A stretch of 38,200 nucleotides of DNA, from positions 1 through 38,200 of the forward strand of contig CANPYB010000003.1 of the NCBI GenBank assembly GCA_947587605.1, in the 5' to 3' direction. Each line of letters opens with the position of its first letter. Position 1 is the first letter of the stretch. Shown here piece after piece: positions 32,121 to 38,200 of this stretch. The DNA is from Candidatus Gastranaerophilales bacterium (GTDB lineage Bacteria > Cyanobacteriota > Vampirovibrionia > Gastranaerophilales > Gastranaerophilaceae). The notes under the pieces are model-generated. The model ran no database searches and was not told the origin of the DNA. It saw only the letters and a list, made by a program, of their open reading frames with translations. The translations under genes were made by a program, and so were the position numbers.

Positions 32121-34525
32121 TCGGGAGAGTTTAGAGCTTGAGCTGCGCTCAACTGAGATTTTAAATAATCTTTTAATGCTTTCGGATACTCTTTTGTGCT
32201 GTGAGAATTAACCCATTCATGAGCCTCATTGCGTGCTAATTCAAGTATTGGTAAATCTCTTGTTAAATCGGCAAGCCTTAACTCAACCAGACCGCTTTGC
32301 TTTACACCTAAAAATTCACCCGGACCTCTTATTTCCAAATCCTTTTCGGCAATAACAAATCCGTCATTAGTTTGAACAAGAACATTTAATCTGTGTAAAG
32401 TTTCTTCATTTCTTGTTGAGGAAACAAGCAGGCAGTATGACTGTACGTCACTTCTTCCGACTCTGCCTCTTAATTGGTGAAGTTGAGATAAACCAAAACG
32501 CTCCGCGTTTTCAATAACTATCACCGTTGCATTAGGAACATCAACCCCGACTTCAACAACCGTAGTTGCTACAAGAACATCATATACTTTATTTTTAAAG
32601 TCATTCATTACCTTATCTTTTTCATCGGTTTTCATTTTCCCGTGCAAAAGTCCTACTTTTAAATCCTTAAAATATCCGTTTTGCAGTTCCTCAGCTTCTT
32701 TAGTAGCTGCCTTAGCGGATAAAGTTTCCGATTCATCTATTAATGGGAAAACAATATATGCCTGATGTCCGTTATTTACTTCATCTTTAATTAAATTCAG
32801 CGCCTGCCTGTACTGTGATTGCTTTAATAAAGCAGTCTTAACAGGTTTTCTGCCTTTTGGAAGTTCATCTATTATTGTTAAATCCAAATCACCATGCACT
32901 GTTAAAGCAAGAGTTCTTGGTATCGGAGTTGCCGTCATTGTTAATGTTTGCGGAATTTTAGCCTTGTTTTTGAGCATATTGCGCTGTTTTACTCCAAACC
33001 TGTGCTGTTCATCAATGACTATTGCACCGAGATTATTAAACTCGACATTATCCTGTATAAGTGCATGAGTGCCGACTGCTATATTAATTTGTCCGTTTCT
33101 TAAATCTTTTTCAAGTTTATTTCTCTGTTTTTTTGTATTTGACGAGGTAAACAATGCAACATTTACCCCCATAGGCGCAAGCCATTTAATAAAATTATTA
33201 AAATGCTGTTGAGCAAGAATTTCCGTCGGTGCCATTATTGCCGCTTGAAATCCGTTTTCAATTGCTGCAAGAAGCATAATACAAGCGACCACTGTTTTTC
33301 CGCTTCCAACATCACCTTGAAGCAGTCTTTGCATAGGCTTATTTGAATTAACATCGTTTAATATTTCGTTAATTGCACGAATTTGAGCTCCCGTTAATTC
33401 AAACGGCAGACTTTTAATAAATTTTTTAACAAGTCCGTCCTCTTTTATTTCTAAAGAAACCGTGTTGTATGATTTCTCATTTTTTGCCCTTATAGAAAAC
33501 AGTTTTATTTGAAGTAAAAACAATTCCTCAAATACAAGAGTAAAACGAGCCTTTTCAAGTTCATCCTGTGAATTAGGGAAGTGTATTACTCTCAGCGCCT
33601 GTTCCTTATTATCCATATCATATTTTTCAATAATATCAGCAGGCAAAAGATTTTGAATATTTGAACAGTATTTATCAAGTGCGCTGTTAACCGCTTTTCT
33701 CAGCGCTTTTATATTCAAATTTTCAACCAACGGATAGACGGGTACTATTCTTCCGAGGTTTAAATTATCAGTTTCAAAGTTTTCATCGTTAACTATTTGA
33801 TACTGCGGTTTATCAATTGTTAATTTGTTAGTATAATTATCGCGCTTTACCGTGCCTGAAACAATTATTCCGCTTAATTTCGGAAATTGAGCCTTATATC
33901 TTTCCATTGAATATCTGTTTAATTTAGAATAAAAGAAATTAAGCTCCAGCGAGGCAGAGCTGTCTGTAATAGTTACTTTTATTATTGTAAGTCCGTTTTT
34001 AGTCGTAAATGTTTTTAATGCCGTTATTGTTCCGTATATAGTTACATTTTCACCAACTCTTAAATCTTTTATAAGTGAGTGTGAGGAGTAATCAATATAT
34101 TTCTTCGGGTAAAAACTTATTAAATCGAAAACAGAGTATATTCCGAGTTTATTTAATAAATATGCAAATTTAGGTCCTACACCTTTCAGCGAAGCTACAT
34201 CATCATTATAAATATCAATATTTTTTATCTCATCATTATCACTTTTTGTTTGATTTAATTCTTTTTTAAGCAGGCTGACAAATCTTATTACGCTTTTTTT
34301 TCTCTGCATCATTGTTTCCATGGGGTAATGCTCAAACGCTTCAATAACTGCAAGCCATTTAATATCCTTATGTGAATTTTTATATATTTGTTTAATCTGC
34401 TTTAGCATAAAGCCCGAAAAAGTATTTTCTCTGCCCTCAAGGTCGATATATCTATACTTTTCCTCAAGTTCAACAGCTTTTTTTATTAATTCAATATCAA
34501 TATCTTTTAAACTGCTACTCTTCAT
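32117..34525 (-). CDS. recG: ATP-dependent DNA helicase RecG
   Basis: LKGVGPKFAYLLNKLGIYSVFDLISFYPKKYID, LLQGDVGSGKTVVACIMLLAAIENGFQAAIMAPTEILAQQH, DEQHRFGVKQR, MTATPIPRTLALTVHGDLDLTIIDELPKGR, QLRGRVGRSD. Confidence 0.97.
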   Translation of the reverse strand: MKSSSLKDIDIELIKKAVELEEKYRYIDLEGRENTFSGFMLKQIKQIYKNSHKDIKWLAVIEAFEHYPMETMMQRKKSVIRFVSLLKKELNQTKSDNDEIKNIDIYNDDVASLKGVGPKFAYLLNKLGIYSVFDLISFYPKKYIDYSSHSLIKDLRVGENVTIYGTITALKTFTTKNGLTIIKVTITDSSASLELNFFYSKLNRYSMERYKAQFPKLSGIIVSGTVKRDNYTNKLTIDKPQYQIVNDENFETDNLNLGRIVPVYPLVENLNIKALRKAVNSALDKYCSNIQNLLPADIIEKYDMDNKEQALRVIHFPNSQDELEKARFTLVFEELFLLQIKLFSIRAKNEKSYNTVSLEIKEDGLVKKFIKSLPFELTGAQIRAINEILNDVNSNKPMQRLLQGDVGSGKTVVACIMLLAAIENGFQAAIMAPTEILAQQHFNNFIKWLAPMGVNVALFTSSNTKKQRNKLEKDLRNGQINIAVGTHALIQDNVEFNNLGAIVIDEQHRFGVKQRNMLKNKAKIPQTLTMTATPIPRTLALTVHGDLDLTIIDELPKGRKPVKTALLKQSQYRQALNLIKDEVNNGHQAYIVFPLIDESETLSAKAATKEAEELQNGYFKDLKVGLLHGKMKTDEKDKVMNDFKNKVYDVLVATTVVEVGVDVPNATVIVIENAERFGLSQLHQLRGRVGRSDVQSYCLLVSSTRNEETLHRLNVLVQTNDGFVIAEKDLEIRGPGEFLGVKQSGLVELRLADLTRDLPILELARNEAHEWVNSHSTKEYPKALKDYLKSQLSAAQALNSPD

Positions 34526-36491
34526 TTTTCAACTTTAAAACTTCATATATATCAATAGGTTTAGACTTACCTTTTATGTAAAAACTGCTCAATTTAACAG
34601 TATCAACATAATCTTTAACATATTCATAAGTGTATTGGCTTATAAGAAAAGATGTCTTAAGAACATGATTATACGCTTCAATTCTTGAAGCAATGTTTAC
34701 TTCATCGCCGATTACGGTATATTCAAGTCTTTCTTCAGTTCCCACATTGCCTGCAAACACTTCACCCGTATTTATTCCTATTCCTATATCAATTTTAGGT
34801 TTTCCCTCTTTTAAAAATTTTTCTTTTAATAAATTTACTCTTTGAGTAATTTCCATACCGCATTTAATCGCGTTAAGAGGATGATTTTCATCTTTTATGG
34901 GTTCACCAAATACAGCAAGAACTCCGTCACCTATGTATTTATTAATAATTCCTTTATACTTTGCTATAACAGGCTCTATCTGTGAAAAATATTCATTTAA
35001 TATAGATGTAACCTCCTGCGGAGCAAGATTTTCTGACATTTGTGTAAAATTACGAATATCAACAAATAACACGGTAACAACAGCTCTTATTCCGCCGAGC
35101 TTAAGTTTTTCAATATCAGCCAAAACCTTTTTCATAACATCTTTTGATACAAATTTACCCATTGCCCGTTTTATCAATTCGGTTGATTTATCTGTTGTAA
35201 TTATTGAATACAGCTGCTTTAAAAAAGCGGACATATATATTGTAACTATTGGTGTAACAGGGGGAATATATGTTTGACGAGAAAATTCAAAAAGGTAATA
35301 AACAAAATATATAAAAGATAATCCCGAAGCAAAAATCAAATTATACTTTAATCGTTTAAAACCGAAAATAACAAATAATGAAAACAGAGCCGTAATAAGC
35401 AGTGTCGCATCAAATTTTGCAGGCGATACAAATGAATTATCAAGCATATTATCAATTAGTACAGCTTGAATATCAATATCGGAATGTTTTTTCATTATAG
35501 GAGTTTCGCTTAACTGCTCCCAAACACTTCTGTCTGCATTCAGACCGATTATAACTATTTTATTTTTAAACTCATCAGCAGAAATAACAGGTTTTTTATT
35601 TGACTTTAGCGAATAATAAGACTCCAAAACATCAATTGCAGAGAATTTTTTATGAGAATAACCCTTACTGACGGGTAAGTACCAATTAACTTTTGTATAT
35701 TCACCTCTTACACTATTGCCAAGATAATCTCTTAATTTTTTATTTTGAACGGGAATTTTTAGCGACTTGCAATCATCACCGGCACTGCACAAAAAGTCAT
35801 CATACAAATTAAAATCTTTTACTCCCGTATATTTTGAATATGCACTTAATGCCAATGAAGGATATAATTTATTCTCCAGCTGTACAACAGGCATATAATT
35901 GCGCATAATGGTGTCATCATCTTCAATAAGCATGGAAGATGCCAGATTTTCCGAACTGTATAAATATCCTTTAGGTAAATTAATAACTGCTTTATATGAT
36001 GAATTGCGGTTGTTTTGGCGTTTATCGGAAATAGTCAAATTGTTTTTTTTGTCAAAAATGTTGACATATTCATCGGGTAAAACATCACCCGCCAAATTTG
36101 AATTTACCAAAATATAGCTGTTAATGAGATTATTATTTTGTTTTATTGAATTATAAAAAATGATATCCTTATCAGGGTTATATGTATCCGGAAACATAAC
36201 AAGATTATGAAAAACAATAACTTTTGCATGTGCGTAATTATTAAGGTAATAAAATAAATCGGCAAACAAGTCTCTTGTCCACGGCCACTTAATTTTAGAA
36301 GCCGATTTTTCATCAACGGCAATTAAAACAATTTTATCCGATGCTTTTTTTTGTTCAATCTTAGTAATAACTTTAGTAAAAAAATCATCCGCTTTATTAT
36401 CAAATATCTTAAGCGACAATAAATAAGCAAATGCCGTTAAAAAAAGCAATACTATAATCAAAGCTGTTTTTGAAATTAAATTCTTTTTCAT
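34515..36491 (-). CDS. CHASE2 sensor-domain class III adenylate cyclase
   Basis: N-terminal TM then CHASE2-like DKIVLIAVDEKSASKIKWPWTRDLFADLFYYL; C-terminal cyclase VTVLFVDIRNFTQMSENL, YKGIINKYIGDGVLAVFG, GIGINTGEVFAGNVGTEERLEYTVIGDEVNIASRIEA. Confidence 0.9.
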   Translation of the reverse strand: MKKNLISKTALIIVLLFLTAFAYLLSLKIFDNKADDFFTKVITKIEQKKASDKIVLIAVDEKSASKIKWPWTRDLFADLFYYLNNYAHAKVIVFHNLVMFPDTYNPDKDIIFYNSIKQNNNLINSYILVNSNLAGDVLPDEYVNIFDKKNNLTISDKRQNNRNSSYKAVINLPKGYLYSSENLASSMLIEDDDTIMRNYMPVVQLENKLYPSLALSAYSKYTGVKDFNLYDDFLCSAGDDCKSLKIPVQNKKLRDYLGNSVRGEYTKVNWYLPVSKGYSHKKFSAIDVLESYYSLKSNKKPVISADEFKNKIVIIGLNADRSVWEQLSETPIMKKHSDIDIQAVLIDNMLDNSFVSPAKFDATLLITALFSLFVIFGFKRLKYNLIFASGLSFIYFVYYLFEFSRQTYIPPVTPIVTIYMSAFLKQLYSIITTDKSTELIKRAMGKFVSKDVMKKVLADIEKLKLGGIRAVVTVLFVDIRNFTQMSENLAPQEVTSILNEYFSQIEPVIAKYKGIINKYIGDGVLAVFGEPIKDENHPLNAIKCGMEITQRVNLLKEKFLKEGKPKIDIGIGINTGEVFAGNVGTEERLEYTVIGDEVNIASRIEAYNHVLKTSFLISQYTYEYVKDYVDTVKLSSFYIKGKSKPIDIYEVLKLKNEE

Positions 36492-36587: not shown

Positions 36588-38200
36588 ATGGTGAAAAATT
36601 CAAATATAATAATTATGCTCATAACATCAATAATTGCGGTACTAATAACATTACAATTATATGATTTTTTGTATGATAAATGCTTTTGGAGTAATTTGAA
36701 TGATTTATATACGGGAGTAACAATATACTCTGACCATAATAAATATCTTGATTTAAGCGTTATATTTATATATACGTCGTTATTTTTCTTACTACTGCCT
36801 CCGATATCAATTTTTTGTAAAAATTTTAAAATTAATGAACTAACTCAATGTGCGATAAATAAAATAAAAAATGTTAAACCCGTAAAATTTTCTTTTGAAA
36901 AAACACTATGCAAATATCAATATATCGGATTAACAGGATATTTATTCCTGTATCCATATGATGGAGAGATATATCCTGCTTTAATTTTTATAATGACAGC
37001 GCTGATAATAGCCGGGATTATTGATATAAGAAAACGCAATATAGCCGCGGGGGGGGGTATTTCTTCATTTTCACCCTGGGCATTAGCGTCAATTCTTTTT
37101 ATAATTTGCCATAATCCGTACAATCAGCCGATTTTACCTTTCGATGCTCACCATTTAGGTGAAAGATTTGCGACATATTATCTGCATGAAACCTTTAATA
37201 TGAATTACTACAAAGATATAATGCTTGTTCACGGAATAAAAGATATGCTTCCCTCTATCTGCGGTAAATATTTATTCGGTTCAATAAGTGTATATTCTTC
37301 AATGTTAGGTGATATCTTTTTAAAAAATATAAGTGTTATTTCTACCTGCATAATATGTTCTTATATTTTTTCGGAGTGCATTATCTTTGCAATTCCATCT
37401 GTAATTATTCCGGGAGATTATTTTACTAAAATATATTACTGTTTTTATTTAATATTTTTAAAAAACATTAACCAAAAAACTGCCCCAAAATTAATATTGT
37501 GGATTATCGCTTTTATTATTATTTCGTTTTTATTTATGATAAACTGGACGACAATTGGCTCTTTTTGGATTATTTCAACACTTCCTCTTGCGGGATTTAT
37601 GCTGTACAAATTATTAAAACAATCAAATAAACCGTTAAATATTTTTATTATTGCAGGAGCTTTATTAATACTATTAATCCCGAATAAAGACTTTATAATT
37701 GAGTATCTTAAACAAGCACAATACTATGTTGCAGGTAATTTATGTGCTTTCGGAAATAATTTCGGAAGTTATGATTATTCACTAAAACAAACGCTTTATT
37801 ATTTGCCAAGATTTATTATTTATATTTTACTTCCCATATTTATTATTGAGTTTGTTAATACCTTAAAAAACAAGAAAATTAATGAAGCATTCTTTTATTT
37901 ATTTATAATTATATTTTCAGTTACATCCGTAAATTACACGTTCGGACGCCTTGATTATGAATTTATCACCCGTATATCAATTATATCACTGTCATTTGCG
38001 GGAATAATGCTTCCTTATTACTTATATACAAAATTCCCCGATTACAGACAGAATATAATTAAGCCTGTTATACTCTTATATCTTTTAATATCATTATTAT
38101 TTACTTTTAATAATTTTATAAATAAACCCTTGATAATGACTTATAAAAAAGGGGATAAATTAGTATTTTTAGAAAAAAATACAATAAATGAAATAAAATT
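36588..38200 (+). CDS. Large polytopic membrane protein, possible GT-C glycosyltransferase, 3' end outside window
   Basis: Not in ORF track because no stop falls in the window. ATG at 36588 (MVKNSNIIIMLITSIIAVLITLQLYDFLYDK...) is open to the last base. Contains LPFDAHHLGERFATYYLHETFNMNYYKDIMLVHGIKDMLPS and many TM helices. Confidence 0.7.
   Translation, partial: MVKNSNIIIMLITSIIAVLITLQLYDFLYDKCFWSNLNDLYTGVTIYSDHNKYLDLSVIFIYTSLFFLLLPPISIFCKNFKINELTQCAINKIKNVKPVKFSFEKTLCKYQYIGLTGYLFLYPYDGEIYPALIFIMTALIIAGIIDIRKRNIAAGGGISSFSPWALASILFIICHNPYNQPILPFDAHHLGERFATYYLHETFNMNYYKDIMLVHGIKDMLPSICGKYLFGSISVYSSMLGDIFLKNISVISTCIICSYIFSECIIFAIPSVIIPGDYFTKIYYCFYLIFLKNINQKTAPKLILWIIAFIIISFLFMINWTTIGSFWIISTLPLAGFMLYKLLKQSNKPLNIFIIAGALLILLIPNKDFIIEYLKQAQYYVAGNLCAFGNNFGSYDYSLKQTLYYLPRFIIYILLPIFIIEFVNTLKNKKINEAFFYLFIIIFSVTSVNYTFGRLDYEFITRISIISLSFAGIMLPYYLYTKFPDYRQNIIKPVILLYLLISLLFTFNNFINKPLIMTYKKGDKLVFLEKNTINEIK
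37049..37057 (+). repeat. 9-bp poly-G homopolymer inside membrane protein CDS
   Basis: GCC GCG GGG GGG GGT: nine consecutive G in an otherwise AT-rich gene. Confidence 0.9.

Follow-up and report, generated by a model that had tools for sequence, protein, structure and literature searches.

The window analysed here, a 38,200-nucleotide stretch of Gastranaerophilales DNA, ends in a gene for a predicted membrane protein whose coding sequence contains a run of nine consecutive G, and the question raised by this locus is whether the run is a fixed part of the protein or a switch that can turn the gene on and off. A sequence-only reading of the window had suggested that the gene may be phase variable. 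We considered the tract itself, its counterparts in related genomes, and comparable runs throughout the source genome (G000), a draft metagenome assembly of 1.72 Mb in 182 contigs that is 83% complete and has a GC content of ~31%.

The tract and its reading frames

The nine consecutive G were confirmed in coding sequence at exactly the coordinates listed in Table 1, at approximately codon 154 of the host open reading frame, where GCC GCG GGG GGG GGT is read in frame as Ala-Ala-Gly-Gly-Gly. Recomputation of the frames showed that tracts of 6, 9 or 12 G leave the frame open, and reproduced the two stop codons that had been derived by hand for tracts of 8 and 10 G. At these two lengths the protein is cut at codon 166 or 176 of 792, soon after the glycines, which bears out the earlier claim that a single-base slip in either direction truncates it early. 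As at a contingency locus, a change of one unit thus alters the reading frame and leads to an early stop. No other G/C run in the window is longer than 5 bases, and matches to G7 (3 observed, 0.23 expected) reached a count of at least 3 in 0 of 100 shuffles.

Table 1. Positions of the tract-associated features in the window and of sibling tracts that are open in one species and frameshifted in another.
Feature	Position	Strand	State or reading	Basis
Host gene of the G9 tract	36588..38200	+	Membrane protein (~11 helices predicted); cut off by the contig end, with 537 codons inside the window	ORF, helix prediction, contig overlap
G9 homopolymer	37049..37057	+	Open frame at 9 G, lost at 8 or 10 G; proposed slippage switch	
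TAG stop	37084..37086	+	Reached with 8 (or 11) G	Frame recomputation
TAA stop	37112..37114	+	Reached with 10 (or 7) G	Frame recomputation
Sibling tract	C2:5481		9 G, frameshifted (OFF) in G000; 10 G, open (ON) in G019	Orthologue comparison
Sibling tract	C46:1674		10 G, frameshifted (OFF) in G000; 9 G, open (ON) in G019	Orthologue comparison
Sibling tract	C2:11295		10 G, open (ON) in G000; 9 G, frameshifted (OFF) in G017	Orthologue comparison

The host gene and its protein

Contig C123 of the same genome shares the last 113 bp of the window with a single one-base difference and extends the gene to 792 amino acids, a length that follows the window's reading at the mismatch. At that position (38124-38126) the window has AAA and C123 has AA, which shifts the frame within the 113-bp overlap; the one-A difference may represent another allele carried by the population and may be the reason why the assembly breaks there.

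The many-helix part of the protein, in which the helices are predictions, is followed by ~260 soluble residues at the C-terminus, and alignment of the family revealed an invariant acidic/His motif, D-x-H-H-x-G-E, and a conserved YYKDIMLVHG stretch. Searches with 12 homologues returned no Pfam match for the family, NCBIfam and PDB profile searches gave no match for the protein, and it was also unmatched in a profile comparison with the PMT_2 protein encoded in the window. Family profiles accordingly gave no support for assignment as a GT-C glycosyltransferase (PMT_2/GT39), and an AlphaFold model built from four sequences was discarded because of its pLDDT of 38. The protein is possibly a polytopic GT-C-like glycan enzyme, and its topology, together with the kinds of genes that share such tracts (see below), suggests a role in glycan polymer formation or glycosyl transfer. 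The earlier label of a surface-glycan-like gene is therefore plausible but is not backed by a family match in the Pfam, NCBIfam or PDB profiles.

The divergent neighbour of the tract gene (34515-36491, minus strand) encodes a protein with CHASE2 and adenylate/guanylate cyclase domains. PMT_2 and GT2 glycosyltransferase genes, both without a tract, lie near the host gene, and the remaining genes of the window are mainly of the housekeeping type (RecG, UvrD, TPR, ABC transporter, branching enzyme and others). Two close homologues of the host protein were found in the metagenome-assembled genomes (MAGs) 'Candidatus Gastranaerophilales bacterium' Lapin-005 bin31 and Lapin-017 bin48; if 'Lapin' is read as rabbit, the rabbit gut would be a habitat of this species or of a very close relative.

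The same locus in related genomes

The tract is exactly 9 G long in the source genome and in two close species (G017 and G019), with flanks that are 76-96% identical. The comparison of tract length among homologues that had been proposed as a check thus gave a divided result, as there was no length change at this locus in three of three close species but one-base differences were present at five sibling loci. Homologues that encode the same three glycines with mixed codons, which had been named as counter-evidence, were not found: the close ones have a pure G9 and the distant ones lack the residues. These distant homologues within the genus (34-46% identity) are without Ala-Ala-Gly-Gly-Gly, an insertion located within a loop that separates predicted helices and varies in length.

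An ordinary Ala-Ala-Gly-Gly-Gly insertion acting as a fixed glycine linker, with no switching, would agree with this loop position and with a gene that is in frame at the same length of 9 in three close species. However, because GGG accounts for only 12% of glycine codons in the source genome, a pure G9 kept in three species, with flank identity down to 76%, is unlikely without a cause. A linker would also leave unexpected the 46 long runs of the genome, with none of length 7, and the ~17 frameshifted siblings described below, as well as a distant homologue (in G008) with a tract at a frame break, and we consider this explanation unlikely. In G008, the homologue carries a separate G10 ~350 residues downstream, right at the junction of two frames, as well as an internal TGA; in G021, a G9 is found at a third site, where it is read in frame, and a separate frameshift follows it. 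Since the tracts of the window group, G008 and G021 are at differing sites, at least three independent origins are indicated within the host gene family.

A distinct class of long G/C runs in the source genome

The whole genome contains 46 G/C runs of at least 8 bases (lengths 8-10). In the 502 kb that were fetched for the run-length histogram, and which contain all 46, there were 102 runs of 5, 4 of 6, 0 of 7, 1 of 8, 35 of 9 and 10 of 10, i.e. a bimodal distribution with a gap at 7, whereas A and T runs only decayed with length and showed no excess class. Markov models of orders 2-4, built on the same 502 kb with the tracts removed, predicted 0.1-1.5 runs of at least 8 compared to the 46 observed. 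Homopolymers of ~8 or more bases are known to be hypermutable.

The base 5' of the tract was C in 34 of 46 cases and the base 3' was C in 2 of 46; the corresponding figures for G/C runs of 5-6 bases were 49 and 27 of 106. We did not retain a sequence motif directing tract birth as an explanation, the bias for C before and against C after the run being modest.

Genes carrying sibling tracts

Each tract was placed relative to genes by scoring coding potential on either side of it. Approximately 40 of the 46 lie inside genes; 22 are in frame and ~17 are frameshifted, the latter with the frame beyond the tract intact. The genes in the OFF state are otherwise intact, with open downstream frames, and this includes three ON/OFF pairs of orthologues.

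Pfam matches among the tract genes included NeuB, LicD, PEP phosphomutase with cytidylyltransferase, two IspD-like cytidylyltransferases, several methyltransferases, and pairs of class V aminotransferases, PglD/hexapeptide acetyltransferases and polysaccharide pyruvyltransferases, in addition to a polysaccharide deacetylase, a GT-D glycosyltransferase, an MBOAT acyltransferase, and ATP-grasp, GDSL and asparagine synthase proteins. Two tract genes matched the Chlam_PMP repeat, and two giant, adhesin-like products, one 1930 residues long and the other at least 2154, had no family match. Judged from these assignments, the tract genes appear to serve mostly in building or decorating surface glycans, together with adhesin-like proteins, in contrast to the largely housekeeping content of the rest of the window.

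Three of the individual loci are described here. One glycan cluster (G000:C18:11363-15261) carries five tracts in ~4 kb, two of them in a single pyruvyltransferase/FrhB fusion gene, followed by one each in an aminotransferase, a methyltransferase and a deacetylase gene. An ORF that spans 2154 codons or more and lacks any family match carries a G9 at its 5' end (G000:C7:17764-17772); its orthologue in G017 has the same G9 and one T fewer just downstream. The tract at G000:C92:6049 is outside clear coding sequence, has flanks that are 96% identical in G019 (G019:C10:40752 and 41719) and is possibly intergenic or part of an unrecognised element.

Single-base length differences between close species

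Five sibling loci (C2:5481, C2:11295, C28:9127, C46:1674 and C169:2422) differ by one G between close species, with the caveat that assembled homopolymers of 9-10 bp may be off by one base in length and some of the OFF calls are possibly artefacts. Three of these loci exchange an open for a frameshifted gene (Table 1), and the flanks at the toggling orthologous tracts are 86-96% identical. At C2:2989, a mixed sequence replaces the run in G019, which indicates that substitution creates or removes tracts.

Frameshifted genes whose downstream frames are intact would also agree with an action at the level of RNA, in which slippage of the polymerase or a frameshift by the ribosome at the G run yields a fixed mix of full and short products from unchanged DNA. 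A programmed mechanism of this kind needs no change in the DNA, yet orthologous tracts differ by one DNA base and swap frame, and, apart from a slight tendency to have C just ahead of the run, the flanks hold no conserved stimulator; we regard this alternative as very improbable.

Tracts were often close to assembly breaks in G017, where 9 of 34 were 60 bp or less from a contig end compared to 0.56 expected. One break in G017, between contigs C17 and C4, falls at the orthologue of the window tract, and another, between C72 and C169, within a second orthologous tract. Mixed tract lengths in the sample would cause such breaks, and we take them as a hint of this; alternatively, they may stem from G runs that sequence poorly or from surface loci that differ between strains. 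There was no pile-up of tracts at contig ends in G000, in which the nearest tract was 96 bp from an end.

These breaks, together with the 182-contig draft state of the source assembly, could be taken to mean that the tracts are sequencing or assembly artefacts, such as the poly-G of two-colour chemistry or miscalled homopolymers. However, the tracts are located inside contigs with coding frames on either side, are 8-12 bases long, and recur at the same positions in genomes from other samples. Moreover, G043, a better-assembled genome of the same genus (20 contigs), has 62 tracts, yet relatives such as G020 and G023 have 0. An artefact of this type is extremely improbable.

Distribution within the family and mismatch repair

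The three close species group together in a tree of MutS. Within the genus, the number of runs of at least 8 bases ranged from 0-2 in G001, G004, G006, G013, G020 and G023 to 64-121 in G021, G005, G051, G008, G007 and G049. Tracts of 8-11 bases in G043 were found in genes that are in part of a similar kind (for an FkbM methyltransferase, GT4, PMT_2, UbiA and several unmatched proteins), some of them in frame and some shifted. When the phylum was sampled evenly, members of the same family, with genomes near 2 Mb, had from 0 to 176 runs of at least 9 bases, the maximum being in G117.

The tract-rich state was clustered on the MutS tree, yet it required 6 changes, at least 3 of which were forced by supported branches, and a single origin was therefore rejected. 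Loss of mismatch repair, judged by MutS, found no support as the cause: MutS1 was present in 52 of the 52 genomes tested. Nor is a raw run excess unique to this family, since some photosynthetic cyanobacteria with larger genomes carry 50-90 runs of at least 9 bases (raw counts).

Proposed mechanism of switching

Overall, the best reading of the G9 tract is very probably that of a simple-sequence contingency switch, i.e. phase variation by slippage, and the suggestion that the gene may be phase variable gains support at the level of the genome from the excess of runs, their location in what are mostly surface-glycan genes, the mix of in-frame and frameshifted copies and the ON/OFF orthologues. 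During replication the tract would slip by one base. With 9 G (or 6 or 12), the full 792-residue membrane protein would be made (ON); with 8 or 10 G, translation would stop no more than ~10-20 codons after the glycines, leaving most of the protein unmade (OFF), until another slip restored the frame and returned the gene to ON. Acting together, ~40 such coding tracts would generate a population with many surface types. Both slippage as the mutational process and reversible switching within a population are what we infer from the pattern of tract lengths and frames. The surface coat of this organism is thus probably varied in a manner similar to that of Campylobacter.

Significance

The mechanism, poly-G slippage within a coding frame, is of the kind known from Campylobacter and Neisseria, whereas the lineage and the scale of the repertoire look unreported: a search of the open full-text literature for descriptions of phase variation in Gastranaerophilales or Melainabacteria gave none (subscription papers being outside its scope). 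It is reasonably likely that Gastranaerophilaceae, which are uncultured relatives of cyanobacteria that live in the gut and do not photosynthesise, hold one of the largest known poly-G phase-variable repertoires (46 tracts here and >100 in several relatives), kept despite the presence of MutS and repeatedly gained or lost within one genus, which would give a presumed commensal combinatorial variation in its surface glycans.

A 2025 review raised as a major open question that genomes rich in phase-variable loci seem to be restricted to pathogens (PMC11868660). If our reading is true, a presumed gut commensal of the cyanobacterial phylum with dozens to >100 tracts, in surface genes where these were examined, would be a culture-free counter-example to that restriction. 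Close species with 0-2 tracts beside species with 40-80 would further allow a test of what drives gain and loss, such as phage, immunity or diet. The same reading also carries a warning, namely that MAGs of Gastranaerophilaceae would contain many falsely 'broken' genes and assembly breaks.

Comparison with known systems

Campylobacter jejuni NCTC11168 has 29 poly-G/poly-C tracts of 7 or more bases (PMC4965091). The likeness to the system described here includes G/C homopolymers of ~8-11 bases in the reading frames of surface-structure genes, an AT-rich, gut-living organism, toggling by one base, and targets such as sugar biosynthesis and methyl and acetyl transferases. In contrast to C. jejuni, the tracts belong to an unrelated phylum (Cyanobacteriota, Gastranaerophilales), switching is read from sequence alone, and the tracts are more numerous (46 of at least 8 bases in a draft genome and up to 176 of at least 9 in the family member G117). 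Campylobacter is not known to possess MutSL, whereas all genomes tested here have MutS1.

The simple-sequence-repeat phasome of Neisseria meningitidis comprises 115 genes (PMC5084427), and the two systems are alike in having many surface genes under the (here putative) control of slippage in one host-bound species. Mononucleotide runs alone were surveyed here, and A/T runs showed no excess class; Neisseria repeats, by comparison, have several unit lengths. In Chlamydia pneumoniae, pmp genes are controlled by poly-G, and two of the tract genes found here similarly carry G tracts in genes for PMP-repeat surface proteins. Unlike the C. pneumoniae pmp genes, these are from another phylum and share a repeat match only, with no evidence of common descent, and most of the tract genes here are glycan genes.
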